Positions 4,480-43,985 of a stretch of 64,000 nt of DNA are shown in pieces. The notes under the pieces are model-generated. The model made no database searches. It had not been told where the DNA came from and saw only the letters and a list, made by a program, of their open reading frames with translations. Position numbers and translations under genes: made by a program. This DNA is from Isoetes taiwanensis (taxonomy: Eukaryota > Streptophyta > Lycopodiopsida > Isoetales > Isoetaceae). Location: contig JAJEKV010000298.1 of the NCBI GenBank assembly GCA_021234155.1, positions 248,001-312,000 of the forward strand. The letters are read 5' to 3'. Each line of letters starts with the position of its first letter. Within the stretch, counting starts at the first letter, position 1.

Positions 4480-5684
4480 ATTTCTCTCCACAGATGCAGG
4501 TAACCTAAATAGTATAGTTCTCACAAAAGGCATGGAATGACTAGAATTCAACAGGATTTTCTAGGCCGCTCTAACTATATGCTCATTAATATGAGCACTG
4601 TTAGAAGGTATATCCACGAACTAGACAACGTAAAACTTTCAAATCTTATCATCCTATACAAAGTATATGTCAAGCTAGCAGTCAGCCTTCGATTGCCATG
4701 ATACTTAACAAAATGGGCAGCCCTGTTCAGCAAGTTCTTGTTGTCCAATACAACAAAGTTCTTTACATCACCAGCACTAAGTCCTTCCCTTTCTCAATTA
4801 TAGACTCATTAATGTTGTGAAGATGACACACATAATGGACTATTGCCAAATTCCTTCATGCAGTAACCTACCATGCCCTTGAAGCAGTGTAGCCTATTGA
4901 TCTTCGAGACTTTACATAAGGGCACAACTCCAGGAAGTTTTGGCAGGCCAATTCATATCCTTCTTGATGGCCTCATTCATAGCCCTAGCAGACTTGTAAC
5001 AGGCTCTAAGAATAGCCTAGCAATGCAAATAATCTACAAAAATGTCTCATTAGTGTCACTGCCCCTTCTAAGCACCTTCTAACACAGAAACAAATCATAG
5101 CATCATAGAAGCTTCTGGGACATCCTGGCCTGAGAGCCCCAATGTCACACTCACGTCAATAGCTCCCCAATCCTGACCCAAACCAGGCCTTAGAGATGAA
5201 CCTCCAATTTGCTATCCCTCCATCTCTGAACTACTCAAAGATGGGGGGTAGCCCTAGCTATTCCCTTACCATTTCTTGTTGCCTTTTTCAAAGACATGCT
5301 GCCCTTAACTAAACCTACAACCTAATAGCCGGAAAGAACCTGTACCTTAGGCGCTGCCGACAAAGGAAGGAGCCAACATAACAAATGGATTTGAGATGGG
5401 TTCCTCGCTTCGCAGCAGGAAAACCAAACATGGAAATCTAACACCTGCAGGTTGCAAGAAAAGAAACTCATCTGCAGTTCGGCCATATGTAGCAATCTAC
5501 GTGCCATACCATCCTCTTCGGGCAATGATACCTCTTGTGATTCGCATAAGGCAGGTTCACCGTCAAGGATTATGGTATTAAAAAAAAGGACCAACAAATA
5601 CCTTATAAAATCGTATGTAGTAAAAATACGGTTTGTGATATCGGTCACGTTATGGTTGTGGATTTCTTTCCATCCATTAACGGT
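4480..5684. other. Intergenic flank left of the tyrosine-recombinase element
   Basis: No gene, RNA gene or repeat is recognised. A long minus-strand frame (5969-5322) runs across the retroelement boundary at 5,685 and has no recognisable domain, so it is not called. Confidence 0.4.
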
Positions 5685-5720
5685 CATTCCTAGGATGGGT
5701 CCTGATCTACACACAAGTGG
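5685..5720 (-). repeat. B2 repeat, outer (3') end of the element
   Basis: Begins CATTCCTAGGATGGGTCC on the plus strand and matches 6469-6504 over 36 bp with one mismatch. The preceding bases (…TAACGGT) are flank and differ from those preceding B1. Confidence 0.75.
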
Positions 5721-6312
5721 CCTGGTGTTCTCATTGAGCTTTGGAAAAATTTTGAGTACAAAGAGCCCCCGTAGGGTGGATGAAACAATGCTTAATACTA
5801 TATGCCCGAAATATAGACAATCCTCGAGAGCATGTAACTGGCCAAGTTCGATTTGAGTCAAGGAGTCCGCCAAAGCCGAAAAATCGCCCCCCCATCGAAA
5901 GTGCAAATTGCTTGTTGTGGAGCCGACGTGAACGTTGCCCCCCGAAGTTGAGGAGTCCGTGGATCGCATACCCTGTCACCGAAAAAGGCTAATTAGAGGG
6001 AGAGAATCTGGAAAGAGAGAACCCATTAGTCGTTAGAAGTTCCATAGTAGGCGAGGAACGATGCCACAAGAGAGAGAAAAAAACAATCTCGAAGCCACGG
6101 TGGCTACGCCGGTAGAGAAAGCTGGTCGACCAACAGGAAAACATTACTAGGGATCGGCTTTGGTTGGTACGCACGGAGGAACAACATCGCCACGCCGAGA
6201 GAAGAAGAAAAATATCTATACACATGCCCCCAAGGACCCCAACAAACCTAAGGAACCCAACCGAACAAGTGAAAACTCTCATCCAATGAAGGACAAAAAG
6301 CGGGGAAGGGCG

Positions 6313-6471
6313 GGGAAGCTAGGTAGAGGTGCAAGCGACCAAAGCAAAGCCCAAGAGAACCGATGGCCAATAATGTGGAAAACCGATCTATAAGTAGGAG
6401 GGCGAGGAGATGGGGGGCGTCCCCATCCAGGAATGACGGTTCTATTGCTATCGCGAATAGAACCGTGGCAT
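6313..6471 (-). repeat. A2 repeat (internal copy of the left terminal repeat)
   Basis: About 159 bp, nearly identical to 13,335-13,492, from GGGAAGCTAGGTAGAGGTGC through the palindrome to GTGGCAT. It abuts B1 with the CAT triplet shared. Confidence 0.8.
6436..6466. promoter_or_regulatory. Recombination-site-like palindrome in A2
   Basis: Arm ACGGTTCTATTG, short spacer, arm (G)AATAGAACCGT. It is one base longer than the perfect 12-6-12 version in unit 3 (43,585-43,614). It ends 2 bp before the shared CAT. The geometry resembles binding sites of tyrosine recombinases (paired arms of 11-13 bp around a 6-8-bp spacer); a transcript hairpin is the alternative. Confidence 0.5.
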
Positions 6472-6504
6472 TCCTAGGATGGGTCCCGATCTACACACAA
6501 GTGG
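6469..6504 (-). repeat. B1 repeat, joined to A2
   Basis: 36-bp match to B2 at 5685-5720. The CAT at 6469-6471 belongs to both A2 and B1, giving GTGGCATTCCTAGG, the junction expected in a circular intermediate. Confidence 0.75.
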
Positions 6505-6539
6505 TCGAAAAGAAGAGGAACCTACCTCAAAGACCCGGA

Positions 6540-7253
6540 TGGCGAATTGAGGAGGCTCCCTGAATATCGGGTAGAATGTAGCGTGAGTGGGAAGCGAGCC
6601 AACGCCCATGAGAGCGGACAATGTCGAAGGGATGACGTGGCAGAATTTTGTGGTGGCACCGCAGCCCTACGGCCGCATGGGTGCCAAAATTGCTGAGGCT
6701 CCAAACCGATAAGACGCAGAGGGCCTCAAACCACCAAGAACGGCAAAGCAAAGATAAGACAAAGGGCGTGGAGGGACAAGGATGAGCGAAAAGAGAGGAC
6801 CTCCCCGAGGTGGGTCGAGAAAGCTAAAACAAAGAAGCGGACAATAGACGTTTGCAATAACATGACCGGGCAAAAGGGAAAGAATGTGCGGGCTATGAGG
6901 ACCTCCTGGCCAGCGGCAGACTGGTCGCACTTAGACTTGCGGATATGCAACTGGACGTAGTCGGGGGAAAAAGACAGGTCGCGCCAATTCAAGTGCAGTG
7001 CCTCAGAGATGCGGAGAAAACCAGCAAAGCGGATAGTGACAAGGCATGCTTTCATAAGGCTGCGCCAATCGGCTCTTGCGGGGGCGAGAAGGGAGATGAC
7101 CTGGCGGACGTGAGATGCGGTAAGAGGTAAATGCCGCCGTGAAGAAGTGTGGGTACGAGGAGCAGCTTGGCGGACCAAAGCAGGAAGGGGGGCCGAACAA
7201 GGAGACGGGAGGTTGACCAAGCTATGAAAGAAGGTAATTGGCGGCGAGCGCAA
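6540..7253 (-). pseudogene. Tyrosine recombinase (YR) of the retroelement, frameshifted
   Basis: Encodes the site-specific recombinase that would integrate the circular cDNA without duplicating the target. In frame 7253-6726, residues 70-95 read …TIRFAGFLRISEALHLNWRD, the box containing the first catalytic Arg (R81, near 7013). The second half is in another frame (6751-6527): FGTH (His near 6679), then SHGRW (His/Trp box near 6610) and SRYI with the nucleophilic Tyr near 6580. The HxxR Arg appears in the overlapping frame as GRRAA, so one base has been lost there. The order R…H.R…H/W…Y matches DIRS/Ngaro YRs. The N-terminal arm-binding region probably extends up to about 8,050. Not functional as written; truncated away in units 2 and 3. 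Confidence 0.8.
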
Positions 7254-8072
7254 TCCCTATAGAAGTAGGACTAACGATGGGTGGAAATCAAGGAGGAAAA
7301 GAATGCAAAGAACATGCAAAGAGGAAGGAGCAAGGACGAAGTCGCCGGAGAATGACACCAACGACGAAATTGTAGCCGGCGGAAGAATAAGCGAAAGCAA
7401 GGTCGAGGGTACGAGTGGAGTGGAGGACGATGCCATAGCCGAGGCAAAGAAGGGCAAAGAGGGACCGGTCGAAAAAGGCAAGATATCTGGAACAAGGGAT
7501 AAACAAGTGTTAATATCGCCTAACAAAAATAGGATAACATCACCATGTACTACTCTAAGCCATACCAAACCCGACCAACAACCCGGAAGCCAAACACAAG
7601 TTTAACAAACAATCAAGAACAACCTTATATTACGATAAAGATAAAACTCAGAGAAGAATCACGCCGGACCGTAAGAACGAGCGGCGGAGAAAAGACAATT
7701 TTAAGTATCGAAAAATCACAACGTAAGGCAAACAAAGCCGTGATGACGACGACGGAAACAAGGCGGAAGAAGGTGATGGGGAGTAAGGCATGGGAAAATT
7801 CATGAAAGAAAACTGCGTCTCGAACAAAAGATTGCCAAGTGGAGGAGTCAACAGCAAGCGCTGGCCACCAAGGGCGTAAGGCCATGAGAAAACAAGAAGT
7901 GTAAGGCGAAAGCCCGCGAAATGCGAAAGCATGATGCAAAACCCGGGAACCAAGGAAGGTGGAGGAAAGCAGAAGTTGTTGAACAAATGCCACTATAAGA
8001 AAGCGTCGCTGTGTGCGATCCGACGAGGGTAATAATCCTTGGTGTGCAAAAAACCGGGAGGGTGTTGGAAGG

Positions 8073-8840
8073 GCTAGCAAGCGATCCACATGATGAGGTC
8101 CCCAACGCCATCCAAGAGGCAAAAACTGAAGGAGACAGAGAGAAAATTGGCCAAAGGCCCGGATCTTGGAAAGATAATCAGCCCACTCATTCTCCAAGCG
8201 TGGAACCCAAACCGGATCCAATCAATATGGTGCCGATAGCAAAAAATTAGTACTTCCAAAAGAAAAATGAAGAATGTGAGATCGCGAACCGCCATTCCGC
8301 AATAAAAAGAACACATTCTCGATTGTCCCACGAAGCTATCACCCGTGAGTTAGTTAGCAACGACACACCGGGCCGGGATCTCGGAAAAGAGCAAAAAGTT
8401 CACGCCAAGTGGATGATTGGAGGCGGGCATCCGCCGAGAAGTCCCCGAAAAAGAAAGAAGTTCGTAACCCGACATGAAAGCCAACCACCCCATCCCTCAT
8501 CATCGGCATCAAAACCCAAGGTAGACCCGACCACGTATAGCGGCCACAAAGGGGCTCGCCGAACCGATAAATCGGGGTTTGCCAAAGCTGGACCTCCCCG
8601 CTTTGCAAGGGGAGATAGTAGAAGGGGTATCCCAAAGGTCGGCCGACGCAGATCAGCATGAAGGCCACAAGATAAGGCAAAGACAAAGATGACCCAAGAC
8701 CAAGCGTAGGGATTGGATAAAGCCAAGGAAACGCAATCAGCAGGAGTGACATTTTGGGAAGATATGAGAGAAGAGCACTGAGACGTAACCCGTTCCTTCT
8801 TAGCCCGAAATAATGAAAGAAAACCCTCATGAGCATCCAC
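8073..8840 (-). pseudogene. RNase H and connector to the recombinase
   Basis: Frames 8836-8354 and 8969-8400 contain LGFDADDEGWGGW, the first catalytic Asp region of DIRS/Ngaro RNase H. Frame 8221-7625 contains WVPRLENEWADYLSK, the terminal 'WxPR..N..AD.LS' box of the same domain. This is followed, with shifts of frame, by WGPHHVDR and LASPSNTLPVFCTPR, the conserved 'fgph.vD.FAS..N..lp.f' connector found between RNase H and YR in these elements. At least three frame changes separate the motifs. The domain would degrade the RNA template during cDNA synthesis. Confidence 0.75.
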
Positions 8841-8970
8841 TATGAAACCTAAGAAGATTGTGCGATGGGGAGAGACGAAAACCGACACTTCTTCCAAGCT
8901 AGGAGAAAACCGCCCGCCAGAAGTCCGAAATGACGCGAATCTGCAGAAACTTCGGGACGGATGGGGCACA

Positions 8971-9440
8971 AGAATAGAATATCATCAACGAGGGTAGGCA
9001 ACGGATGCCCCCGACCTCGCCAAAACCGAACTATCCGTCCGACTAATTTGGTAAAGACAAAAGGGGCTGAAGCTAGACCAAAGGGGAGGACATTAAAGAC
9101 ATAGAACCACCATCAAGACCAAAACCCAAGAAAGTGCGATGAGGAGGCCGATCGCGGACATGGTGATAGCCGGATTTGAGGTCGACAAAGAAAGAGAAAG
9201 TCGCTGGGCAAACTCAAATGTGACAATAGTTCGAGGGACTCATACCGAAAAGGAGGGATAGTCAAGAAGGAGTTCGATAAGCGCAGATCCAAGATGACGC
9301 TAAATTTGTTTAGGCCTTTGGGGACGACCCCAAGGGGGAACGTAAGAAAGGACAGAGGAGGCGGGGAAGCGCACCCGTGGCGCAAGAGATCGGCTATAGC
9401 AGAAAGTGAGCAAAGTCTAGGTGGGGCATTAACGGACGAA
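8971..9440 (-). pseudogene. Reverse transcriptase of the YR retroelement
   Basis: In frame 10000-9113, residues about 220-260 read PLGVVPKGLNKFSVILDLRLSNSF…FRYESLELL, RT motifs 1 and 2 (VPK.…R.I.DLR.LN). After a frame change the minus strand gives LPFGLASAPFVFTKLV and then VDDILF at about 8,975-8,995 (YVDDILF in unit 2), the catalytic box. The pattern is closest to DIRS/Ngaro RTs rather than to Copia, Gypsy or LINE enzymes. Upstream residues of frame 10000-9113 show no other domain. Frameshifts make it non-functional as written. Confidence 0.8.
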
Positions 9441-10000
9441 AGTGGTTTGAGGCGGCGAAAAGCAACAGCATCGGACACGTGGATGACCAAGGAAGGCGAT
9501 AACCAAATCAGATCCAACTCAACACTGCTGTGAGGAGCAAATGGATTGCCAAAAAGGAAGGGACGATGGAGGCGGTCCAGACTATAGTACTTGCCAGGCC
9601 AAATCATCCACCGGGAGGGTCGATGCCAAGATGAGGGATGACCGATGTGAACGGAGCACACATTCAAAAGAGGCCACAAACCGTAAGTAAACAACCTAGC
9701 AACAAATGGAAAAACATCAAACCAAGTAGGCAACGGGATCCATGTAGCACCATGCAAGCCTATAACCCCCTTGACGCCGAAGTTAAACCAACACAAGCTC
9801 AAACCTAAAACCTCGCAGTAAAAAAATATAACCCACATGCAACCTTTAACCCGGTGGAGAAAAATTCCACTAATACTAGAAAACTTTCGAGGCAAGCACA
9901 ACACATACTTAAACAACATTTCAAACCGCATGCCCCAATAATGGGGAAGGTACCGCCCCCAATTCATCCAACACCACCCCAACAATGATCCGACTATCAC

Positions 10001-11219
10001 TTAACACGCTAAAAACCATAAAATAATGGTAACCAACAAACTCAAACCTAAGAACAACAAACGTGAGCTAACAAAGAATGGGACGAGCCAACAACATTCA
10101 ATGAATACCATACATAATAGTGTTGCTTTAACCTCCAAACCAGAAAAATCAGGGGGGGAACATGAATCATGGACCGGGTCGAGGAAAAATGGAGTCTGGG
10201 CCGCACCAAAGGACCGGGGTGGAATCAAAAGTGGCAGAGGAGTGCTAGGAGATCCGGCATTAGCGCGAGCATGGCAAGTTTCAATACGATGGCCAAGACG
10301 ACCACAAAAAGTACAAAAAGGACGAGAACCGGATCTAGATGAAGAGAACTGGGACGGAGGCGCAGCAGAGAAGGAAGAGCCAGTGGAGGGAGCAGAGGGT
10401 TTTGAAGCAGAGGGGCGCCGATCACGGTGCATTTGCCGAGCTAGCTTCAATTTCCTGGAATCATCAGCAGATAAAGCGGGGCCCGCATGGTCATCAAAAT
10501 CCAAGGCGACATCATAGCCTTCGCGATCAGCAATAATCAAAAACTTCATCCTCTGCAGAGTGGCAGCCTTACCTTCCTCAATAATCAAGAATCGACGCAC
10601 CCGAGGGGACAAAGCCGCCAAATCGGGCATGAAGCTCCCTAATCTTGACTCCGCGGGCACAAAGGAACTCATATTGGTGGCGCTGACGATTCCCTCTTAA
10701 AGTTGGGGAACGTAATCGAGACGCCTCGCTCAACCTCCGGGCGAAGCACTTCAACCGCCATGCACGTAAGCGCCGGCAAGTGAAGACCGAAGGCTCAGAC
10801 TGCGCTTATCCGTGAGTCGGAGGGTTCCAGCAGCCTCGAGGCACCATATCCAAAGATGGAGAAGGAATGGATGGGCCCGCGGCCGGCTAAGGAATGGTTA
10901 AGCCCTATAGAAGGACTCACCGGGGCCGTGAGAAAAACCGGGGCGGAACCGGGGCAAAAGAAACGTAAGAGACAACCCGAGATGGACCTACCAACCCAAG
11001 TGAGAAGTCATGCTCGTGCATCCGGACAGAGGGATCGCGGGCATGGCAAAGTTCAACGTAGCGGCCAGAGGAGGTATGGAGGGCACCCAGTGCAATAGAA
11101 ATCGCAATGGCGCGCGGCACGCCGGACAAAGTGGGTAGAAGGGGCGGCATCGATAGTAACCCCGCTACCGTCGCTCGTAAAGAAGCCCGAGATGTGCCGG
11201 GAGAGCTCGACCGCCATGC
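10001..11219 (-). pseudogene. Gag-like protein with CCHC zinc knuckle
   Basis: The clearest part is frame 10672-10001 (223 aa): an acidic/hydrophobic start, a basic segment RKLKLARQMHRDRRPSASK (residues 73-91), a Ser/Pro-rich linker, then CTFCGRLGHRIETC at residues 120-133 (C-X2-C-X4-H-X4-C). This is a nucleic-acid-binding knuckle. The probable true start is a minus-strand ATG near 11,217 (MAVELSRHISGFF…), with two or three frame changes before the 10,672 frame. It lies immediately upstream of RT, the usual gag position. It would package the element RNA. Confidence 0.7.
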
Positions 11220-11459
11220 TTTGAAAAAGTCTAGTAACAAACAAGTCGCGACGATTAGAACGAGACAAACAACAAACGATATAAAAGACATACAACGCAT
11301 GGGGAGAGAAAATAAAAAGGATGGACGATGCACCGGAACCATAACAACACAAACGTAGATATCGCCACAAACACACCGGGGAAAGACAACTAATGACCAC
11401 GAGACAAAACCTTAGCCTTAAAAAAATGCAAGGGAAAATATAGTCGAGGTGACCCTAGA

Positions 11460-12085
11460 CGATATGAAAGATCCAAAAAGGTGATAACCGGGGAAACAAT
11501 GACCATAAAACCTAAATATGCGTGCAAAATACCAAATTTATAGAGCAAAAAATAAAAAATAACCATAGGGACGTTATAACCAATCATATGCCCAAGGAGA
11601 GAGCAAACTAAAGGTGAAAGCAATCATATGAAGAGATCCTAAAGGTGATGCTGGGGAAACAATGACCATAAAACCGGACATATGCAAGCAAACTATCAAA
11701 TTTATAGAGCAAAAATTAAAATAACCATGGGGTTGTTATAACCAATCATATGCCCAAGGAGAGAGCAAACTAAAGGTGAAAGCAATCATATGACGATCCT
11801 AAAAGTGATACTAGGGAAACAATGACCATAAAACTGGAAATATGCAAGCAAAATACCAAATTTATAGAGCAAAAAATAAAACAACCATGGGGTCGTTATA
11901 ACCAATCATATGCCCAAGGAGAGAGCAAACTAAAGGTGAAAGCAATCATATGAAAGATCCTAAAGGTGATACTAATGACCATAAACCGGAAATATGCAAG
12001 CAAAATACCAAATTTATAGAGCAAAAATAAAATAATCATGGGGTCGCTATAACCAATCATATGCCCAAGGAGAGAGCAAACTAGA
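11460..12085 (-). repeat. Tandem repeats in the element leader, four units of 151-163 bp
   Basis: The phrase ATGCCCAAGGAGAGAGCAAA recurs at about 11,589, 11,751, 11,911 and 12,061. Each unit also contains ACCAAATTTATAGAGCAAAA and AACCATGGGG(T)…TTATAACCAATC. It lies upstream of gag and downstream of A1 on the coding strand, so promoter or enhancer repeats are plausible. The block is conserved in all three tandem units. Confidence 0.8.
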
Positions 12086-12639
12086 GCCCATATAACAAAA
12101 AACGGACGACTACTACCGAACAAACATCATAAAGAACCCCTAGGAACAAGGGGTAATCACAAAATCATAGAGCTATCCAACGAACCTTGAAACGGAAAAA
12201 ACTCAAAAACAAACTTGAGAGAAGAGGAGAAGATAGGCAACGTCCAACGACAAAAAAGAGGAGCTAACGCCAGGAGAACCCGGTCTGGGCATCCCCGTAA
12301 AACAGGGGATCGAACCTGGTATCCCCCCATTAAAAGAAGGCGAGTATGGTGGGCGGCGGCGTGCCTAAACAATAAAAAACAGTAACCCTAAACAAACAAA
12401 AAAAAGGGGGTCGAAACCGAGGTGGTGATCGAGCTATAAAGCGCAAATAAAAAAAGAACAGAGGTAGAGAATCGGGCCGATAATAGAAAAGAGAACGAAC
12501 CGGCCCAGATTGAAGAAAATTTATCTTGAAGAATCGGCCCAAGGGAGAAAAGAACGTAACCGCCTATCTATGGTACACCCGAAGAAATTGATTAAATCTC
12601 TACTTAGCAGCGAATCAACCAGCCGATCGGACTGTGCCA

Positions 12640-13000
12640 GATCCGGCTCGATGCCCCAATCGCCAATCAATCCGGCAGACGGCAAACCGGGGCGATCTTG
12701 CTCGCTGTCGCGGGCTTATCAAACCAAAGGGATTTACTAAAAAATGCAGCCTGGTAATCGAACCAACAAACACGATAGGGATAATCGGCCGAACATAGGA
12801 AAAAGGAGGAGCTTAATCTAAGGATCTCAGGAAGCCATAACGCCCCGGCCGATTTATGCCGACGGACAAAACAGACGGTTGATGCCCCATCGCTAATCGA
12901 TCCGCGACGGCAAAACCGGGCAAAGTTTGCCCAAGCTGGCCGAGGGCCGATCAAACCAACAAAACAACCAGAGGAAACCGATCAAACCAACAAAAACAAA
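12640..13000 (-). repeat. Direct repeat of about 231 bp in the element leader
   Basis: The phrase GATGCCCC(A)-TCGC(C/T)AATC(A/G)ATCC-…-ACGGCAAA at about 12,650 is repeated at about 12,881, followed in each case by a GATCAAACCAA phrase. Also present in units 2 and 3. Confidence 0.6.
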
Positions 13001-13334
13001 CGTAATAAACCGAAGAATAAACCGACAGAGAAAGAAACCACATAACGTAAAACGGTTCAATGCATAAAACCGGATAAAGCACCACGAGACTAACCAAGAC
13101 CGCCGCCGAAACTCACTTACTCGCAAAGATCCACGAGCGTGGCACATGGATTCAAGCAAAGGGAGAGATTAAACCGGTGAAAGAAAATAATGTGACTTAC
13201 CTTAGAGGATGCAAAGAACCGGACGCGGGAAGCGGTGTAGGGATGAAGAGCTTATCAGGCGCACCACCACAAGCTCGTCTTGGTGTGGATGAAGCTTGTC
13301 TTGGTGTGGATGGCTCTGGCTGGCGTGGGGTGCT

Positions 13335-13492
13335 GGGAAGCTAGGTAGAGGTGCAAGCGACCAAAGCAAAGCCCAAGAGAACGCCGATGGCCAATAATGT
13401 GGAAAACTGATCTATAAGTAGGAGGGCGAGGAGATGGGGCGCCCCATCCAGGAATGACGCCCTATTGCTATCGCGAATAGAACCGCGGGCAT
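13335..13492 (-). repeat. A1 repeat, outer (5') end of the element
   Basis: 158 bp matching A2 (6313-6471). It ends at CAT (13,490-13,492), after which the host sequence AAG(C/T)…TGCATATAAAAAC begins; the same host sequence follows the element end in units 2 and 3. In this copy one palindrome arm is altered (GCCC for GGTT). Confidence 0.8.
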
Positions 13493-13857
13493 AAGTTTGC
13501 ATATAAAAACAATCTCAACCGTGATTGTTTGACGAGATGTAGATCTCCAGGAACTATTCACTCATCTAGATGCATCCAAAATCGTCCAAAAGGCATATCT
13601 TGTGGACTATACTAATTCCTCACCCCACCCTAGGGCTTGCCCTTCAAGAATGAAATAGCAGTAACCAGTAGTATGATTAACTAATTCTCCCCTAAAAAAC
13701 CATTTTGGATTTATCCATTTAGATGTAGTCTCGATCTGCTGCAAACGACTTTATTCAAGTCGTCCGCTTCAAATGAACTGCATGCAAATTCAAATTCTCG
13801 ATTTGGGTACATGCAAATCAGATCAAAATCTAGAACCCAAAACTAGAAAAGGTTGGC

Positions 13858-14637
13858 ATGTCCATAAAAAATAGGCCTTTAATTTCTATTGTTAGGCCCG
13901 GAAAAGCATTTCTCTTTACGGCAAAAATGAATCGGAGGGCAGTATCTTCTTGCACAACGTCCAGAAAGTCTGAACAGGATGAATTTTCTACTTTAAATGC
14001 GGATCTCAGTGCAGATGTAGAAAAAAGAGCTCGGGAATTCTTAGAACTGGAACCCCTTTTTACAGATTTTGAAATTGAAACAGCAGATGGGAGCATTATT
14101 CAGGCAAATAGAGTCGTATTGGTGAACAGATCCCCTGTTTTTGCAGCAATGCTTCATCAGGAAATGGAAGAGAAAAAATTAGGAAGAATGAAGCTGTTAG
14201 ACGAAGACCCAATATCGGTGAAATCGTTTATATCTTTTCTGTATAAAGGAAAGATTTGCATGCAAGAAATGGAGCAGAATTGCAAGTCCCTTTTGAAGCT
14301 TGCTAACAAATACGGTGTTCAATTAATGAAGAGTGCATGCGAGGGATTTCTTTCCTGTAAGATAAATGATGATAACGTCTTAGAATTGCTGGAGCTTGCC
14401 AATGCAGCGAATGCAGACTGCTTGAAAGAATTTGCCTTACAGTACTTTGCAGTGCAACTCAAGAGGATCATGGAGAAACCACATTTTAACGAGCTAAAAG
14501 AGACTGATCCTAATTTTGTCATCAACATCTTTCACCAGATTTTGACAAGGCCAGACATCACTATTGGAATTCCCTATGATGTTCGGAAGATCAAATCTTT
14601 TGGGTCGCAACTATTCAAGCATGTCATTCTGGACTAG
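13858..14637 (+). CDS. BTB/POZ domain protein, intact copy (unit 1)
   Basis: 259-aa protein in one exon. Residues about 66-165 form a BTB/POZ domain: FTDFEIETADGSIIQANRVV (start), then VNRSPVFAAMLHQEMEEKK, the MKLLDEDPISVKSFISFLYKGKI strand/helix pair, and LLKLANKYGVQLMKSACEGFL. A C-terminal helical region (BACK-like, residues 170-235) follows: NVLELLELANAANADCLKEFALQYF. The pattern resembles small plant BTB proteins of the At4g08455 type, which act as CUL3 ubiquitin-ligase adaptors; this role is inferred from family. An in-frame TAG lies about 10 codons upstream, supporting the start at 13,858. It is convergent with the START-like gene on the other strand. Its upstream flank begins only 365 bp after the retroelement end. 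Units 2 and 3 carry broken copies. Confidence 0.85.
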   Translation: MSIKNRPLISIVRPGKAFLFTAKMNRRAVSSCTTSRKSEQDEFSTLNADLSADVEKRAREFLELEPLFTDFEIETADGSIIQANRVVLVNRSPVFAAMLHQEMEEKKLGRMKLLDEDPISVKSFISFLYKGKICMQEMEQNCKSLLKLANKYGVQLMKSACEGFLSCKINDDNVLELLELANAANADCLKEFALQYFAVQLKRIMEKPHFNELKETDPNFVINIFHQILTRPDITIGIPYDVRKIKSFGSQLFKHVILD

Positions 14638-23084: not shown

Positions 23085-23095
23085 AAAAACCGGGC
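23075..23095. other. Tandem junction 1: LINE RT joined to YR retroelement
   Basis: LINE sequence matching 52,690-52,714 stops at about 23,084. Sequence matching 8,048 onward starts at 23,085. Short G/A runs at the join prevent exact placement and could be microhomology. The same join occurs at 38,127. Confidence 0.85.
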
Positions 23096-23932
23096 AGAGG
23101 GTGTTGGAAGGGCTAGCAAAGCGATCCACATGATGAGGTCCCCAACGCCATCCAAGAGGCAAAAAATCAAGGAGACAGAGAAAATTCGCCAAAGGCCCTG
23201 GATCTTGGAAAGATAATCAGCCCACTTATTCTCCAAGCGTGGAACCCAAAACCGGATCCAATCAATATGGTGCCGATAGCAAAAAATTAGTACTTCCAAC
23301 AAAGAAAAAAATGAAGAACGTGAGATCGCGAACCGCCATTCCGCAATAAAAGAACACATTTCGATTGTCCCCACGAAGCTATCACCCGTGAGTTAGTTAG
23401 CAACCCAGACACACCGCCGCAGATCCGGAAAAGAGCAAAAAGTTCACGCCAAGTGGATGATTGAGGCGGCATCCGCCGAGAAGTCCCTAAAAAGAAAGAA
23501 GTTCGTAACCCGGGACGTGGAAAGCCAACCACCCCATCCCTCATCACGGGCATCAAAACCCAAGGTAGACTCGACTACGTAGGCGGCCACAAAGGGGCTC
23601 ACGAACCGATAAATCGGTTTGCCAAAGCCGGACCTCCCGCTTTGCAAGGGGAGATAGTAGAAGGGGGTATCCCAAAGGTCGGCCAGACGCAGATCAGCGA
23701 TGAAGGCCACAAGATAAGGCAAAGACAAAGATGACCCAAGACCAAGCGTAGGGGATTGATAAAGCCAAGGAAACGGGCAATCAAAGCGAGGAGTGACATT
23801 TTGGGAAGATAACAGAAGAAGAGCACGCAGAGACGTAACCCGTTCCTTCTTAGCCCGAGAAATAACGAAAGAAACCCTCATGAGCATCCACTATGAAACC
23901 TAAGAAGATTGCAGCGATGGGAGAGACGAAAA

Positions 23933-24232
23933 CTAACACTTCTTCCAAGCTAGGAGAAAACCGCCCGCCGAAGTCCGAAATGACGCTAACCGCAGAAACT
24001 CGGACGGATCGCACAAGAATAGAATATCATCAACGTAGGGTAGGCAACGGATGCCCTGACCTCGCCAAAACCGAACTATCTGTCTGACTAATTTGGTAAA
24101 GACAAAGGGGGCTGAAGCTAGACCAAAGGGGAGGACATTAAAGACATAGAACTGACCATCAAGACCAAAACCCAAGAAAGCGATGAGGAGGCCGATCGCG
24201 GACATGGTGATAGCCGGATTTGAGGTCGACAA
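23933..24232 (-). pseudogene. RT catalytic block of the YR retroelement (unit 2)
   Basis: Best-preserved RT piece in the window. One frame holds LGFGLDGQFYVFNVLPFGLA…SAPFVFTKLVRQIVRFW, then LPYVDDILFL with both catalytic Asp (about 24,020-24,050). 'LPFGL..AP..FTK' and 'YVDDIL' with this spacing are typical of DIRS/Ngaro-type RTs. Confidence 0.8.
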
Positions 24233-26459
24233 AGAAAGAGAAAGTCGCTGGGCAAACTCAAATGTGACAATAGTTCGAGGGACTCATACCGAAGGGGAGG
24301 GGATAGTCAAGAAGGAGTTCGGAGAAGCGCATCCAAGATGAGACTAAATTTGTTTAGGCCTTTGGGGACGACCCCAAGGGGAAACGTAAGAAAGGACGAG
24401 AGGAGATCGGGAAGCGGCACCTGGGCGCAAGAGATCGGCTATAGCAGAGTGAGCAAAGTCTAGGTGGGCAGACACGGACGAGTGGTTTGAGGCGGCGAAA
24501 GCAACAGACGGACACGTGGATGACCAAGGAAGGCGATAACCAAATCAGATCCAACTCAACACATTTGTGAGGAGCAAATGGATTGCCAAAAAGGAAGGGA
24601 CGATGGAGGCGGTCCAGACTATAGCAGCCAGAGGCCAAACCATCCCGGGGGAGGGTCGATGCCAAGATGAGGGATGACCATGTGAACGGAGCACATTCAA
24701 AAGAGGCCACAAACCGTGGTAAACAACCTAGCAACAAATGGAAAACATCAAACCAAGTAGGCAATGGGATCCATGTAGCACCATGCAAGTTTATAACCCT
24801 CAAGACGCCGAAGTTAAACCAACACAAGCTCAAACCTAAAACCCCGCACAAAATATAACCCACATGCAACCTTTAACCCGTGGAGAAAAAAAAATTCCAC
24901 CTAATACTAGAAAAACTTTCGAGGCAAGCACAATACATACTTAAACAACATTTCAAACCCATGCCCCACACTGTGGAAGGTACCGCCCCAATTCATCCAA
25001 CACCACCCCAACAATGATCCGACTATCACCTAACACGCTGTAACCATAAAATAATGGTAACCAACAAACTCAAACCTAAGAACAACAAACGTGAGCTAAC
25101 AAAGAATGGGACGAGCCAACAACATTCAATGAATACCATACATAATAGTGTTGCTTTAACCTCCAAACCAGAAAAATCGGGGAACATGAATCATGGACCG
25201 GTCGAGGAAAAAATGGAGTCGGGCCGGCACCAAAGGACCCGGGTGGAATCAAAAGTGGCGAGGAGTGCTAGGAGATCCCCAGATTAGCGCCGAAAGCATG
25301 GCAAGTTTCAATAATGATGGCCAAGACGACACCAAAAAGTACAAAAAGGACGAGAACCGGATCTAGATGAAGAGAACCGGACGGAGGCGCAAGCAGAGAA
25401 GGAAGAGCCGTGGAGGGAGCAGAGGGTTTTGAAGCAGAGGGGCCGATCACGGTGCATTTGCCGAAGCTAGCTTCAACTTCACGGAATCATCGCCAGATAA
25501 AGCGGCCCGCATGGTCATCAAAATCCAAGGCGACATCATAGCCTTCAGCGATCAGCAATAATCAAAAACTTCATCCTCCGCAGAAAGTGGCAGCCTTTAC
25601 CTTCCTCAATAATCAAGAATCCCATCGCACCCGAGGGGACAAAGTCACAAACGGCATGAAGCTCCCTAATCTTGACTCCGGGCACAAAGGAACTCATATT
25701 GGTGGTGCGGCGATTCCCTCTTAAAGTTGGGGAACGATCGAGACGCCTCGCTTCAACCTCCCGGCGGCACTTCAATCCGCCATGCACGTAAGGCCGGCGG
25801 GCGGTGAAGATCAAGGCTCAGACTGCGCTATCCGTATCGGAGGGTCCGCGAAGCAACCGAGGCACCATATCCAAAGATGGAGAAGGAATGGATGGGCCCG
25901 CTGGCCGGCAAGGAATGGTTAAGCCCCTATAGAAGGACCTCATTGGCGTAGAGAAAAACTGGGGGCGGAACTGGGGCAAAAGAAACAGAAGAGACAACCC
26001 GAGATGGACCGGCCGAACCCAAGTGAGAAGTCATGCTCGGCATCCGGACAGAGGGATCGCGAGGCATGGCGGTGTTCACCGTGTAGCCAGAGGAGTGTAT
26101 GGAGGGCACCTCGTGCAATAGAAATCGCACGGCGCGGCACGCCGGACAAAGCGGGTAGAAGGGGCGGTACCGATAGCAACCCGCCACCGGCTTGCGTCAG
26201 AAGAAGCCCGAGATGTGCCGGGAGAGCTCGACCGCCATGTCAGAAAAAAGTCTAGTAACAGCAAGTCGCACGCATTAGAACGAGACAAACAACAAACGAT
26301 AAAAGACATACAACGCATGGGGAGAGAAAAATAAAAAGGATGGACTATGCACGGAACCACAACAACACAAACGTAGATATCGCCACAACACACCGGGGAA
26401 AGACAACTAATGACCACGCAGACAAAAACCTTAGCAAATTTCTAGAAAAATGCAAGGGA

Positions 26460-27090
26460 AAATATAGTGAGGTGACCCTAGACGATATGAAAGATCCAAA
26501 AGGTGATAATCTGGGAAACAATGACCATAAAACCGAAAATATGCAGCAAAATACCAAATTTATAGAGCAAAAATAAAATAACCATAGGGACGTTATAACC
26601 AATCATATGCCCAAGGAGAGAGCAAACTAAAGGTGAAAGCAATCATATGAAGAGATCCTAAAGGTGATGCTGGGGAAACAATGACCATAAAACCGGACAT
26701 ATGCAAGCAAACTATCAAATTTATAGAGCAAAAATTAAAATAACCATGGGGTTGTTATAACCAATCATATGCCCAAGGAGAGAGCAAACTAAAGGTGAAA
26801 GCAATCATATGACGATCCTAAAAAGTGATACTAGGAAACAATGACCATAAACTGGAAATATGCAAGCAAAATACCAAATTTATAGAGCAAAAATAAAAAC
26901 AACCATGGGGTCGTTATAACCAATCATATGCCCAAGGAGAGAAAACTAAAGGTGAAAGCAATCATATGAAAGATCCTAAAGGTGATACTAATGACCATAA
27001 AACCGGAAATATGCAAGCACAAAATACCAAATTTATAGAGCAAAAATAAAATAATCATGGGGTCGCTATAACCAATCATATGCCCAAGAG
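26460..27090 (-). repeat. Leader tandem repeats (unit 2)
   Basis: Same four-unit array as at 11,460-12,085, with ATGCCCAAG(G)AGAG phrases at about 26,608, 26,769, 26,929 and 27,079. Confidence 0.75.
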
Positions 27091-28885
27091 AGAGCAAACT
27101 AGAGCCCATATAACAAAAAAAAACGGACGACTACTACCGGAACAAACATCATAAAGAACCCCAGGAACAAGGGGTAATCACAAAATCATAGAGCTATCCA
27201 ACGAACCTTGAAACGGAAAAAAAAACTCAAAACAAACTTGAGAGAAGAGGAGAAGATAGTGAACTTGAGAGAAGAGGGAGAAGATAGGCAACGTCCAACG
27301 ACAAAGAGGAGCTAACGCCAGAGAACCCGGTCCGGCATCCCCAAAAAGCGGGGATCGAACCCGGTATCCCCCCATTAAAAGAAGGCTGAGGCTGGCGGGC
27401 GATGGCGGCGGCCGAAACAATAAAAACGTAAACCCTAAAAACAAACAAAAAGGGGGTAAACCGAGGTGGTGATCGAGCTATAAAGCTTGGCCGAAAGAAC
27501 AGAGGTAGAGAATCCACGATAATAGAAAAAGAGAACAGACCTACTCATTGAAGAAAATTTATCTTGAAGAATCTACTGAAGGAGAAAAAAACGCAACCGC
27601 CTATCTATGGTACACCTGAAGAAATTGGATTAAATCTCACGACTAGCACTTAGAACCAGCCTGATCGGACTGTGCCGATCCGGGCTCGATGCCCCACCGC
27701 CAATCAATCTGGCAGACGGCAAACCGGGCGGAGATCTTGCTCAAAGGGGTGTCAGGCTTATCAAACCAAAGGGATTTACCAAAAACAAAGCCCAAATAAT
27801 CGAACCAACAAACAATGATAGGGATAATCGCCGCAATGATAGGAAAAAGGAGGGCTTAACGGAAGGATCTCGGTGAAGCCATAACGCCCCGTCGATGTTG
27901 TCCGACAATCGAAAAAATCGGTTGATGCCCCACCGCTAATCGATCCGGCAGACAAGCAAAACCGGGGCAAGTTTGCCTAAGCTGCCGAGGGGTGATCAAA
28001 CCAACAAAAACAACCGAGGAAACCGATCAAACCAACAAAACAACTGCATTAAACCAAGAATAAACCGGACAGAGAAAGAAACCACATAATGTAAAACGTG
28101 TTCAATGCATAAAACCAGATAAAGCACCACGAGACTAACCAAGACCGGCTGCCGAACTCACTTACTCGCAAAGATCCACAGAGCGCGGCACATGGATTCA
28201 AGCAAAGGGGAGATTAAACCCAGAAAGAAAAAATAAGACTTACCTTAGAGGATGCAAAGAACCGGACGTGGAAAGGTGTAGGGATGAAGAGCGATCGGGG
28301 CGACCACCACAAGCTCGCCTTGGTGTGGATGAAGCTTGTCTTGGTGTGGATGGCTCGGCCGGCGTGGGCGTGGAAGCTTTAGGTAGAGGTGCAAGCTTGA
28401 CCAAAGCAAAGCCAAGAGAACGCCGTGTGGCCAATAATGTGAAAACTGATCTATAAGTAGGGCGACAGGAGATGGGCCCCCATCCAGAATGACAGTTCTA
28501 TTGCTATCGCAATAGAATGTGGCATAAGCTGCATATAAAAACAATCTCAACCGTGATTGTTTGACGAGATGTAGATCTCCAGGAACTATTCACTCATCTA
28601 GATGCATCCAAAATCGTCCAAAAGGCATATCTTGTGGACTATACTAATTCCTCACCCCACCTAGGGCTTGCCCTTCAAGAATGAAATAGCAGTAACCAGT
28701 AGTATGATTAACTAATTCTCCCTAAAAACCATTTTGGATTTATCCATTTAGATGTAGCTCGATCTGCTGCAAACGACTTTATTCAAGTCGTCCGCTTCAA
28801 ATGAACTGCATGCAAATTCAAATTCTCGATTTGGGTACATGCAAATCAGATCAAAATCTAGAACCCAAAACTAGAAAAGGTTGGC

Positions 28886-38126: not shown

Positions 38127-38137
38127 GAAAAGCTGGC
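38116..38137. other. Tandem junction 2: LINE RT joined to YR retroelement
   Basis: Same join as at 23,085, with LINE ending near 38,126 and retroelement sequence (…GGGAGGGTGTTGG) resuming. The identical breakpoint supports descent from one event. Confidence 0.85.
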
Positions 38138-41100
38138 GGGAGGGTGTTGGAAAGGGCTAGCAAAAGCGATCCACATGATGAGGTCCCTAGCGCTCATCCA
38201 AGAGGCAAAAACCTGAAGGAGGCAGAGAAAATTCGTCAAAGGCGGGATCTTGGAAAGATAATCAGCCCACTCATTCTCAAAGCGTGGAACCGGCCTGGAT
38301 CCAGCCCGAATATGGTGCTGAGATAGCAAAAAATTAGTACTTCAAACTGGCAAAAATGAAAACGGGGAGATCGCGAAACGCCGTGCGCAATAAAAAGAAC
38401 ACATTACGATTGTCCCCACGAGCTATCACCGTGAGTTAGTTAGCAGCGAGACCTGCCATTTGCGGGATGGAAAAAGAGCAAAAAGTTCACGCCAAGTGGA
38501 TGATTGGAGGCGGGCATGCGGAGAAGTCCCGAGAAAAAGAAAGAAGTTGAACCTTGGGACGTGAAAGCCAACCACCCCATCCCTCATCAGTGGCATCAAA
38601 ACCCAGGTAGGCGACCACGGAAAGGCGGCCCCAAAGGGGCTCTGGTCGGTGATAAATCGGGGTTTTGCCAAAGTGGACCTCCTGTTTTGCAAGGGGAGAT
38701 AGTAGAAGGGGGTATCCCAAAGGTTGGCCAGGCTTGGAGTCGGCATGAAGGCCACAAGATAAAGGCAGCACAAAAAGATGACCCAAGACCAAGCGTAGGG
38801 ATTGGATAAAGCCAAGGAAGCGGGCAATCAGGCGGTGGTGACATTTTTGGGAAGATAAGAGAAGAGCGAGAGGCGGAGAACCCGTTCCTTCTTAGCAGAA
38901 ATAATGAAAAGAAACCCTCATGAGCATCCACTATGGAAACCTAAGAAGATTGTGCGATGGGAGAGCGAAACCGACACTTCTTCCAAGCTAGGAGAAAACC
39001 GGACTGCTTGCAAGTCCGGAAAATGGCGCGAATCTGGTAAAACTTCGGGCGTGACCGGCACAAGAATAGAATATCATCAGCGTAGGGTAGAGCAGCGGAT
39101 GCCCGACCTGTAAACCGAACTATACAATGTCGACTAATTTGGTAAAGACAAAGGGGCTGAAGCTAGACCAAAGGGAGGACATTAAAGACATAGAAGCTGA
39201 CCATCAAGACCAAAACCAAAAGAAAGTCTGATGAGGGAGGCGGATCGTGACATGGTGATAGCGGTTTGGGGTCGGCGGCAAAGAGAAAGTCGTTGGGCAA
39301 ACTCAAATGTGACAATAGTTCGAGGGACTCATACAGAAAGGAGGGATAGTCAAGAAGGAGTTAGGATAGCGCGAGATCCAAGATGAGACGAAATTTGTTT
39401 TAGGCCTTTGGGACTGACCCCAAGGGGAGCAGAAGAAAGGGCGAGAGGAGATCGGGAAGCGGCACACGGTCGCATAAAGATCGGCTATAGCTTGAGTGAG
39501 CAAAGTCTAGGTGGGCAGACACGGACCCAGTGGTTTGGGTGGCGAAAAAATGAGGCCGAGGACGTGGATGACCAAGGAAGGCGATAACCAAAGCTGTATC
39601 CAACTCAACACCTGTTGTGAGGAGCAAATGGATTGCCAAAAAGGAAGGGGCGCATGGGGCGGTCCAGGACTATATAGCGAAGCCAAACCATCCATTTGGG
39701 GAGGGTCGATGCCAAGATGAGGGATGGCCAGATGTGAGCGGGCACATTACGAAAAGAGGCCACAAACTGTAAGTAAACAACCTAGCAACAAATGGAAAAC
39801 ATCAAACCAAGTAGGGCAATGGGATCCATGTAGCACCATGCAAGCCTATAACCCACCAGTTGAGTTAAACCAACACAAGCTCAAACCTAAAACCTGGCGT
39901 ACAAAATATAACCCATGCAACCTTTAACCCCGTGGAGAAAAAATTCCCGAATACTAGAAAAAAAACTTTCGAGGCAAGCACAACACATACTTAAACAACA
40001 TTTCAACCTGCATGCCCCACACGGGGGAAGGTACCCCCAATTCATCAACACCACCCCAACAATGATCGACTATCACCCTAACCGTTGTAACCATAAAATA
40101 ATGGTAACCAACAAACTCAAACCTAAGAACAACAAACGTGAGCTAACAAAGAATGGGACGAGCCAACAACATTCAATGAATACCATACATAATAGTGTTG
40201 CTTTAACCTCCAAACAGAGAAAAATCGAGGGGAACATGAATCATGGATAGGGTCGAGAAAAAAATGGAGTCGGAGGCCGGCACCAAAGGACAGGGTGGAA
40301 TCAAAAAGTGGCGAGGAGGAGTGCTAGGAGATCCAGAGCATTAAGCGCGAGCATGGCAAAGTTTCAATCTGATGGCCAAGGCGACCACAAAAGTACAAAA
40401 AGGACGAGAAACCGGGATCTAGATGAAGAGAGCTGGGGCGAGGCCTTGTGCAAAGAAGGAAGAGCCGTGGAGGGAGCAGAGGTTTTTGAAGCCGAGGGAA
40501 TCACGGTGCATTGCCGAAACTAGCTTCAATTTCACGGAATCATCAGCCGAGATAAAAGCGGGGCCGCATGGTCATCAAAATCCAAAAGCGACATCATAGC
40601 CTTAGCGTCGGCAATAATCAAAAACTTCATCCCTGCGGAGTGGCGGCCTTACCTTCCTCAATAATCGAAAATCCCTATGGGGCAGAGGGAACAAAGGCAT
40701 CAAGCGGGCATGAAGCTCCGGAATCTTGACTCAGGTAACAAAGGGAACTCATATTGGTGGCTGACGATTCCCTCTTAAAGTTGGGAGCAGGCCAAGGGCG
40801 CTTGGTTCAGACCTCTGGCGAAGCACTTCAAATCTGCTCATGCAAAGCGTCCGGAGTAAAGTGAAAGGCCCGAGAAGGCTCGTAGTACCACCATGTTTGG
40901 AGGATTACCCGGTATTTGAGGGCACCATATCAAAAAGATGGAGAAGGAATGGATGGGCCCGCAGATTGAGCAGGGAATGGTTAAGCCCTATAGAAGGACC
41001 TGCTGAAGCCAGAGAAAAACTGGGGAAGCGGGCCCGGGACAAAAAGAAGCGAAAGAGACAACCAGGATGGACCCGGTAGAACCTAAGTGGGAAGTCAGCA

Positions 41101-41539
41101 CCGTGCATCGGCAGGGGAGGGATCGCGGGCATGGCTGAGGAGTTCAAGCGAAGCGAACGAGAGGAGGTGTATGGAGGCACCTCGGGTGCAATAGAAATCG
41201 CAGCCGGCACGCGTGCACTGACAAGACGGTAGTGAGGGGGGTAGAAGAGTCTTGATATACCCAACTTTCTCAGTCGGGCTAAGCCAGAAAAGCTTGAGAT
41301 GTCTTTGGGAGGCCCTCGATCCGCCATCTTTTAAAAAAGTCTAATGTTAAGTCGCGACGCATTAGAACGAGACAAACAACAAAGCGAAAAAAGACATACA
41401 ACGATGGGGGAGAAAAATAAAAAGGATGGGCGATGATGCGGAACCACAACAACACAAACGTGATATCGTCACAACACACACGGGGAAAGACAACTAATGA
41501 CCACGAGACAAAACCTTAGCGACCTAGAAAAATGCAAGG

Positions 41540-42190
41540 GAAAATATAGTCGAGGTGACCCTAGGCGATATGAAAGATCCAAAAGGTGATCTTTGGGGAA
41601 ACAATGACCATAAAACCAGGAAATATCACGGGCAAAATACCAAATTTATAGAGCAAAAATAAAATAACCATAGGGACGTTATAACCAATCATATGCCCAA
41701 GGAGAGAGCAAACTAAAGGTGAAAGCAATCATATGAAGAGATCTAAAAAAAGGTGATCTTTGGGGAAACAATGACCATAAAACCGGACATATGCAAGCAA
41801 ACTATCAAATTTATAGAGCAAAAATTAAAATAACCATGGGGTTGTTATAACCAATCATATGCCCAAGGAGAGAGCAAACTAAAGGTGAAAGCAATCATAT
41901 GACGATCCTAAAAAGTGATACTAGGAAACAATGACCATAAAACTGGAAATATGCAAGCAAAATACCAAATTTATAGAGCAAAAAATAAAACAACCATGGG
42001 GTCGTTATAACCAATCATATGCCCAAGGAGAGAGCAAACTAAAGGTGAAAGCAATCATATGAAAGATCCTAAAGGTGATACTAATGACCATAAACATAAT
42101 AGGAAATATGCAAGCAAAATATCAAATTTATATAGCAAAAAATAAAATAACCATGGGGTTGTTATAACCAATCATATGCCCAAGGAGAGA
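41540..42190 (-). repeat. Leader tandem repeats (unit 3)
   Basis: Four ATGCCCAAGGAGAGAGCAAA phrases at about 41,693, 41,853, 42,022 and 42,176. Confidence 0.75.
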
Positions 42191-43584
42191 GCAAACTAGA
42201 GCCCATATAACAAAAAACGGACGACTACTACCGAACAAACATCATAAAGAACCCCTAGGAACAAGGGGTAATCACAAAATCATAGAGCTATCCAACGAAC
42301 CTTGAAACGGAAAAAACTCAAAACAAACTTCAAAACAAACTTGAGAGAAGAGGAGAAGATAGGCAACGTCCAACGACAAAAAGAGGAGCTAACGCCCGAG
42401 AGAACCGGTGCAGGGCATCCCCGTAAAAGCAGGGGATCGAACACAGTATCCCCATTAAAAAGAAGGCGGAGGCGGTGGCGATGGCGGTACGGGAAACAAT
42501 AAAAACAGAACCGAAACAAACAAAAAGGGGGTCTAAAAACACGAGGTGGTGATCGAGCCATAAAGCGGGGGCGAAAGAACAGAGGTAGAGAATCGGCCGG
42601 ATAATAGAAAAGAGAAACGAAATCGGCTGTATTGAAGAAAATTTATCTTGAAAAGAATGGCTGAAAGGAGAAAACGAAGTTTCCCGCCTATCTATGGTAC
42701 ACACAGGAAGAAATTGGATTAAATCTCTACGGCCTAGCAGGAACGGAACCATCCGGGACCGAGGGGCGGATCCGGTCGATGCCCCACTGCCAATCAACTG
42801 CGACGGCAAGCCGAGGGTAGATCTTGCTCCTGCGGTGCATAGGCGATCAAACCAAAGGGATTTTACCAAAAAATGCGAGGCCGAAATCTTGAACCAACAA
42901 ACCACGGATAGGGATAATCGGCGGAACATAGGAAAAAAGGAGGAGCGAGCGGAAGGATTCGTGAAGCCATAACGGCCCGGGCGATTTATCTTGTCGGACA
43001 AAAGCAGAGCCGGTTGATGCCCTACGCCAATCGATCTGGCGGGGGCAAACCCGGGGGCAATTTGCCCAAAGCGAGGGGCCGATCAAACCAACAAAACAAC
43101 CGGAGGAAACCGATCAAACCAACAAAACAAACTGAATAAGCCAGGAAGAATAAACCCAAGAAAGAGAAACCACATATGAAACGTGTTCAATGCATAAAAC
43201 CGGATAAAGCACCCACGAGACTAACCAAGACCGGCTGCCGAAAACTCACTTACTCGCGGCATCCGCGAGGCGTGGCACATGGATTCAAGCAAAGGGAGAG
43301 ATTAAAACCGTAAAAAGAAAATAACAGACTTACCTTAGAGGATCAAAGAAGGACGTGGAAGCGGTAGGGATGAAGAGCGTCGAGGCGACCACCACAAGCT
43401 CGTCTTGGTGTGGATGAAGCTTGTCTTGGTGTGGATGGCTCGGCCGGGTCAAGTCGGGGTGGGAAGCTAGGTAGAGGTGCAAGCGACCAAAGCAAAGCCC
43501 AAGAGAACGCCGATGGCCAATAATGTGGAAAACTGATCTATAAGTAGGAGGGCGAGGAGATGGGGCGTCCCCATCCAAGGAATG

Positions 43585-43614
43585 ACGGTTCTATTGCTAT
43601 CGCAATAGAACCGT
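43585..43614. promoter_or_regulatory. Perfect 12-6-12 palindrome at the end of A1 (candidate recombinase site)
   Basis: Arm ACGGTTCTATTG (43,585-43,596), spacer CTATCG (43,597-43,602), arm CAATAGAACCGT (43,603-43,614). The arms are exact reverse complements and the spacer is asymmetric. The element-host boundary triplet CAT lies 3 bp further right. Other copies (6436-6466; 13,455-13,485; 28,490-28,520) are the same site with one to three changes. Confidence 0.6.
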
Positions 43615-43985
43615 GGCATAAGCTGCATATAAAAAACAATCTCAACCGTGATTGTTTGACGAGATGTAGATCTCCAGGAACTATTCACTCATCTAGATGC
43701 ATCCAAAATCGTCCAAAAGGCATATCTTGTGGACTATACTAATTCCTCACCCCACCCTAGGGCTTGCCCTTCAAGAATGAAATAGCAGTAACCAGTAGTA
43801 TGATTAACTAATTCTCCCCTAAAAAACCATTTTGGATTTATCCATTTAGATGTAGCTCTCGATCTGCTGCAAACGACTTTATTCAAGTCGTCCGCTTCAA
43901 ATGAACTGCATGCAAATTCAAATTCTCGATTTGGGTACATGCAAATCAGATCAAAATCTAGAACCCAAAACTAGAAAAGGTTGGC

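Follow-up and report, generated by a model that had tools for sequence, protein, structure and literature searches.

Several described retrotransposons combine a reverse transcriptase (RT) with a tyrosine recombinase (YR) gene. Pat1-like elements, exemplified by SpPat1 of the sea urchin, have split direct repeats (SDRs), a Gag zinc finger, an RT, a methyltransferase (MT)-like domain and a YR that is not inverted (PMC4157794). Kangaroo and TOC elements of green algae combine SDRs with a DIRS-type pol in Viridiplantae (PMC3266345, PMC8226300, PMC4157794), and kangaroo is described as having an inverted YR and no zinc finger (PMC4157794). Ngaro elements have SDRs and internal repeats downstream of YR, and the descriptions in PMC4157794 and PMC9210276 give them no MT-like domain. 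How does an element from a land plant compare? A stretch of 64,000 nucleotides from the lycophyte Isoetes taiwanensis (C901:248001-312000 of the genome assembly, hereafter the window) contains at 5685-13492, on the minus strand, a YR retrotransposon copy with split repeats. Its likeness to Pat1-like elements is one of structure, judged from descriptions, the difference being that its host is a land plant. The kangaroo type was rejected, as the Isoetes YR is co-oriented with the other genes and a zinc knuckle is present; unlike Ngaro, the element gives a weak MT-like signal. With a probability of about 0.9, it belongs to a multicopy family of PAT-type (Pat1-like, DIRS order) YR retrotransposons in the nuclear genome of I. 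taiwanensis.

A 2022 review leaves DIRS out of land plants since it had been found only in green algae (PMC9033089). The survey in PMC3266345 describes DIRS1-like elements as previously undescribed in plants and reports them from chlorophytes, while PAT-like elements are known in relatives of Chlamydomonas (PMC8226300). Dirs1-like elements are recorded in Viridiplantae, which includes algae, by a study whose sampling held three plants (PMC4157794). A reading of the window made from its sequence only (the sequence-only reading) had called YR retroelements scarce or unreported in land plants, which agrees with what PMC9033089 and PMC3266345 state; it had also placed PAT in Volvox, which was mistaken, PAT having first been found in a nematode and kangaroo in Volvox (PMC4157794).

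Some reports speak against novelty. Automatic 'DIRS' labels exist in the fern Ceratopteris (361 pieces, 45,453 bp; PMC6890710), where the likeness is in name only, the relevant passage giving neither structure nor sequence. DIRS is listed as a plant repeat class by PlantRep (PMC9035001) and in a 2024 review (PMC11630846), and a passage of a pine paper lists the RepeatMasker class 'Gypsy/DIRS1'. Among the matches listed in the open-access literature, none described a YR retrotransposon of defined structure from a land plant. The term 'DIRS' is absent from the main text of the Isoetes genome paper (PMC8566536), whose supplementary repeat table could hold a DIRS line. The 2022 review placed DIRS-order elements in green algae and not in land plants. 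The Isoetes family, recently mobile and present in many copies, fills this gap and raises the question of whether the family descended through the streptophytes or arrived by transfer.

Structure of the Isoetes element

Read along the minus strand, A1 is followed by the Gag zinc knuckle, RT, RNase H, an MT-like stretch, YR, the abutting repeats B1A2 and finally B2. The features of the window copy are as follows.

13490-13492: flank trinucleotide ATG, the left boundary, adjoining A1
13332..13488, minus strand: A1, left terminal repeat and 5' end of the element; direct repeat with 6310-6468
11473..12086, minus strand: four tandem repeats of ~160 bp in the 5' leader (families D1-D3, spacing 151-164)
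10001..10696, minus strand: Gag-like open frame with a CCHC zinc knuckle (CTFCGRLGHRIETC); zf-CCHC_4 E 0.015, below cut-off
8882..9511, minus strand: reverse transcriptase, frame broken in this copy; motifs DLKSGYHH, LPFGLASAPFVFTK and VDDI
8165..8513, minus strand: RNase H; motifs FDADDEGWGG, RELFAL and VPRLENEWADYLSK
7700..8104, minus strand: DIRS-type region after RNase H, with WGPHHVDR (8104-8079) and the MT-like stretch; pattern match
6530..7145, minus strand: tyrosine recombinase, frame broken in this copy; Phage_integrase match and motifs
6469..6504, minus strand: B1, 97% identical to B2
6422..6483, minus strand: 62-nt imperfect palindrome across the B1A2 junction, holding the ATG core 6469-6471; from a DNA fold
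6310..6468, minus strand: A2, abutting B1; direct repeat with A1
5685..5720, minus strand: B2, right terminus, ending in AATG; repeat of B1

The repeats therefore run A1...B1A2...B2, the order of split direct repeats, with 92.5% identity between A1 and A2 over 161 columns and 97% between B1 and B2 over 36 nt. The sequence-only reading had recognised both this arrangement and a gag knuckle, DIRS-type RT, RNase H and YR in order on one strand, and both are upheld by the repeat identities and by the domain evidence below. ATG closes the left flank, AGGAATG|CCACGG spans the B1A2 junction, and B2 finishes with AGGAATG before the right flank. Since ATG or AATG stands at the left boundary, at the B1A2 junction and at the end of B2, a short core is common to the three joints. 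There was nothing at gathering scores in Rfam, and a tRNA scan found none.

The names given to the RT, RNase H and YR boxes of the window copy are our own reading of the sequence; those of YR are a box RISEAL (7013-6996), HGRW (6610-6599) and a candidate tyrosine in SRYIL (6586-6572). The reading frames are interrupted many times. An RT reading joined with X residues matches Pfam RVT_1 at 3.5e-12, where single open pol pieces give no match. The Phage_integrase matches fall below the curated cut-off, at 6.5e-4 on an open window piece and at 0.0018 on a longer reading joined with X residues. No Pfam match to RNase H was found in the window pieces scanned, nor to Dam in the window piece. In NCBIfam, YR gives weak XerC/D-type matches only and the pol pieces nothing. 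The RT pattern and the WGPH..DR pattern each have two matches in the window; 100 shuffles gave a mean of 0.00 for each. No DDE integrase family was found among the frames scanned from the window and from other copies.

Copies in the genome

Is this copy one of many? The genome searched was an assembly of 1,658,258,908 bases in 1110 contigs. A B1A2 query gave 1613 first-look candidates, and the 40 that were scored yielded 71 matches. Of these, 40 are long and forward, spread over 21 contigs; the remaining 31 are short, lie on the opposite strand and arise because the junction is palindromic. Half of the forward matches (20, the window copy included) begin at the start of B; the other 20 begin at query base 18-37 and thus cover A plus no more than the end of B. 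The regions examined from the 40 comprise 19 junctions and 14 A1 ends. B2 could be located in the fetched sequence of 17 of the 19 junction regions (all but C1099 and C930), and both ends are present in 14 copies, the window copy and 13 further ones. Among 20 arbitrary 10-kb stretches, one (L018) showed similarity to the element, in two short matches; in the set of loci that included these stretches, 14.8% of all letters were N.

Better-preserved coding regions occur elsewhere in the genome. The copy L059 (on C1089) carries RT and RNase H in a single open frame of 767 residues, which matches RVT_1 at 2.7e-15 and, below cut-off, RNase H families at 0.007-0.013 and Dam (PF05869) at E 0.032 (14.3 bits against a cut-off of 28.1). 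Open frames of both the window copy and L059 contain the CCHC motif, with zf-CCHC_4 at 0.012-0.015, below cut-off. In two other copies Phage_integrase matches at 6.8e-4 (L060) and 0.0062 (L058), again below cut-off, and L058 holds THAGRRGGAT and HGRW...SRYIL in different frames.

In this family of elements, A1 and A2 are expected to be alike at the time of insertion. In four of the 14 copies they differ by no substitution (one of the four has one gap), which shows that the family moved recently. Divergence between A1 and A2 ranges from 0 to 6.1%, with a mean of 2.1% as against 4.4% between copies (182 pairs), and is 3.2% in the window copy; assembly error would tend to raise these values.

Classification and host

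A DIRS1-like element, L001, served for comparison. It occupies L001:1-5841 in a contig deposited as a Phycisphaerales metagenome-assembled genome, turned up in a scan of genomes of bacteria and archaea and is probably eukaryotic contamination of the bacterial bin. Over 592 residues, the pol of L059 aligns with that of L001 at 29% identity and 215 bits. The alignment takes in RT, RNase H and the greater part of the Dam-like region, and the two elements share the order RT-RNase H-Dam; the RT of the window copy is 34% identical to that of L001. The BLASTP stretch runs to residue 716 of L059 (668 of L001), covering most of the Dam matches of both; that of L001 has an E-value of 1.1e-5, also below cut-off. 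L001 differs in its inverted terminal repeats (90 nt, 99%) and in a YR with a TGH motif. A DIRS1-like type with inverted terminal repeats was rejected for the Isoetes element, as no inverted pair of at least 25 nt (seed 14) was found in 4500-15000.

The Isoetes element thus has an RT and RNase H of DIRS type, and a tyrosine recombinase, recognised by below-cut-off Phage_integrase matches and motifs, where a DDE integrase might stand. Its split direct repeats recur in the 13 further two-ended copies. By the structural keys given in PMC4157794, SDRs together with a Gag zinc finger (here below cut-off) and a YR on the same strand point to a Pat1-like element. This filing under PAT rests on structure, and PAT, Ngaro and kangaroo were compared through their published descriptions.

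Several points weigh against this classification. Structural features of such elements are homoplasious, as noted in PMC4157794. The preference for PAT over Ngaro rests on structure and on the weak Dam match of L059, and the Pfam matches of YR fall below the curated cut-off. The window YR reading and the YR of L001 gave no match to each other by BLASTP. In a tree of 12 rows, with long branches and no starred branch, RT groups with the DIRS1-like RT at a support of 84/90, a modest value.

Could the family instead be Ngaro-like, sharing the split repeats and gene order but lacking a methyltransferase and having its internal repeats downstream of YR? The position of B1A2 downstream of YR fits the SDR order of Ngaro as well (PMC4157794, PMC9210276), and the weakness of the Dam match in L059 is in its favour. 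However, L059 aligns with the DIRS1-like pol across most of the Dam region in one stretch, and no hydrolase match was found in the pieces scanned, which downstream of YR covered the window frame 5322-5975 only; a Ngaro-like assignment is therefore unlikely. An ordinary Gypsy (or LINE, long interspersed element) origin, with coincidental repeats and YR-like motifs, might be suggested by the PDB, where the best relatives of L059 by sequence are Ty3-type chains and no match is named DIRS: 57.7 bits to 4ol8_A (a Ty3 chain named RT/RNase H) and 54.9 bits to Ty3-G Gag-Pol. Yet the DIRS1-like L001 likewise has Ty3-type chains as its best PDB matches. The RT scores 125 bits to the RT of L001 as against 64-71 bits to all eight RVT_1 loci of the same genome that were called Gypsy by motif recognition, and, with an E limit of 10, it has no match to the LINE of the window. 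It also stands with the RT of L001 in the tree of 12 rows. The alignment with L001 includes WGPH..DR and the sequence that follows it, and the SDRs recur from copy to copy. A Ty3/Gypsy or LINE origin was rejected on these grounds and is highly improbable, so that a placement of RT in the Gypsy or LINE clades, named by the sequence-only reading as what would overturn it, did not materialise.

Its other reservation, that the DNA might be algal or a contaminant, has some initial appeal, as the plants came from submerged, non-axenic culture (PMC8566536) and the contig of the window is only 376 kb long. Against an element from an alga or other aquatic organism, 16 of the 19 junction copies are on contigs 4.3-53 Mb long, and the remaining three on contigs of 2.6 Mb, 148 kb and 133 kb. 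The 53-Mb scaffold C907, which carries an element copy at 18,582,962-18,589,832, also encodes a DELLA domain (2.9e-30, in an 884-residue frame) and has a second DELLA match with a stop. DELLA marks vascular plants, and none was found in 14 control genomes. The window itself holds a LINE with zf-RVT above cut-off, which we take to be of plant type. Contamination can hence be given very little credence, and the host of the PAT-type family is almost certainly the nuclear genome of I. taiwanensis. Viral contigs contained no relative in searches that used the window reading, L001 or an alignment of the two; the RT pattern had 0 matches in them. The WGPH..DR pattern did match two (L002 and L003), which had no DIRS pol among frames of at least 200 aa and were taken for phage DNA.

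Insertion sites and the junction palindrome

Three observations on the ends of the element are new: left flanks ending in AATG or ATTG, target sequence at B2 in five of the 14 two-ended copies, and the strongest hairpin of the element at B1A2. The left flank ends in AATG in 12 and in ATTG in two of 14 fetched copies, and in TATG in the window copy. At the other end, B2 is kept as the element ending (CATCCTAGGAAT; the last G may be absent) in nine of the 14 two-ended copies, whereas in the other five flank-like target sequence stands in place of 6-13 nt of it. The sequence of the copy's own left flank recurs at B2 exactly over 12 nt in C1089, 16 nt in C1069 (where the first bases of the match are element sequence too) and 11 nt in C907, over 13 of 14 nt in C343 and over 6 nt in C282. 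Exact flank-B2 matches of at least 8 nt occur in 3/14 own pairs and 0/182 mismatched pairs; for this control the left flank of the window copy had been trimmed with an offset of one base from its true end. Lowering the threshold to 6 nt gives 6/14 own pairs and 18/182 mismatched ones.

The joint between B and A has a further property. A 121-nt stretch over the junction folds as DNA with a z of -5.58, a value equalled by 0/200 shuffles, and among 1549 windows of 66 nt (RNA parameters, step 5) the six of lowest energy all overlap the junction palindrome. The hairpin is whole at the B-A junction, partial at A1 and not present at B2. The inverted repeat is recognisable in 20/20 aligned copies, with 95.7% of 438 cells paired; the inner arm is shortened in L041 and the outer arm gapped in L066. 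The palindrome over B1A2 is probably a binding site of the recombinase.

How might the element enter its target? By analogy with its relatives, it would be transcribed and reverse transcribed into cDNA, the ends of which would be completed from the internal B1A2 copy. YR would then recombine the restored B-A junction (...GGAATG|CC...) with a short genomic match, AATG. The insertion data suggest that the exchanged heteroduplex overlap would extend up to about 13 nt upstream of AATG and be resolved to element or to target, because B2 keeps element CATCCTAGGAATG in some copies and has target sequence matching the left flank in others. We tentatively propose that a recently mobile YR family of a vascular land plant, outside the known green-algal range, enters at AATG through its palindromic B-A junction. 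The exchange overlap, of up to ~13 nt, would be resolved to one side or the other, and copies of the target could therefore arise on both sides though the joining is done by a recombinase and not by an integrase, possibly on a folded single-stranded cDNA junction. For DIRS1, a 3-bp match at the junction and no target duplication are described (PMC3266345).

This proposal has to meet the nine of 14 two-ended copies that show no target sequence at B2, and the case of C282 is not significant on its own, as matches of at least 6 nt also occur in mismatched pairs. Target duplication is another possible reading of the copies that have target sequence at both ends, and a staggered cut in which the B end is lost would be an alternative to a heteroduplex overlap. 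Nor does covariation support a folded junction: 1/27 pairs changed on both sides, and 433/500 shuffles scored as high. The copies are too alike for covariation to tell, and the hairpin was not accepted as a proven functional fold.

Integron integrases act on folded attC sites. Might the palindrome likewise act as a single-stranded hairpin, with the recombinase working on folded cDNA and not on a double-stranded circle? The strength of the hairpin, its completeness only where B meets A and the persistence of its pairing in the aligned copies speak for the analogy, but covariation no better than shuffles and the damaged arms of L041 and L066 speak against it, and a palindromic double-stranded binding site would explain the same data. 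A single-stranded hairpin is accordingly a rather improbable mode of action. As A1, the junctions, B2 and the flanks can be read copy by copy, the family offers a natural series of integration products for mapping the crossover zone of a retrotransposon recombinase. To our knowledge, this zone is largely inferred for DIRS-order elements.

Tandem triplication and surroundings

The 5' part of the element belongs to tandem units of ~15 kb, each with a BTB gene, a LINE and an element part.

8049-23084, 23085-38136 and 38137-52714: tandem units 1, 2 and 3
23085..28525, minus strand: second element copy (unit 2), 3'-truncated, 89.6% to unit 1
38137..43619, minus strand: third element copy (unit 3), 3'-truncated, 84.4% to unit 1
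13834-14637: BTB/SPOP-like gene

As the breakpoint of the triplication lies inside the element, units 2 and 3 are without its YR end, and YR and the 3' repeats stand in unit 1 only. The ~160-bp tandem repeats of the leader also match in units 2 and 3. Between units, each stretch of 500 alignment columns in the element parts has 13 to 111 substitutions (about 3-24%). In the gene parts, units 1 and 3 show 0, 0, 0 and 1 differences over four windows that start at 13761 and reach about 15735, and the five windows after these have 2 to 27. A single age does not account for both parts. The published assembly of I. taiwanensis is described as nanopore-based, with polishing and gap-filling (PMC8566536), and the simplest reading of the contrast is uneven polishing; the triplication itself may be partly an assembly product. 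Given the substitutions and short indels of the element parts in a nanopore assembly, some of the frame damage in the window copy may be sequencing error. Old age as the sole cause of its frameshifts was not accepted, in view of the nanopore assembly and the near-identical gene parts of units 1 and 3.

A LINE is present in each unit; its endonuclease was scanned in unit 1 (20551-21549), and in unit 3 RT lies at 51956-52984 and zf-RVT at 53913-54371. In units 1 and 2 the LINE is interrupted by segments at 21480-22012 and 36518-37034, 70% alike and in opposite orientation, which are missing from unit 3. Outside the units, a Copia-type gag fragment lies at 3620-3946 on the minus strand (Retrotran_gag_2 0.004, below cut-off), and local imperfect repeats pair 45-655 with 138-754 (69%) and 59726-60342 with 62084-62706 (73%).

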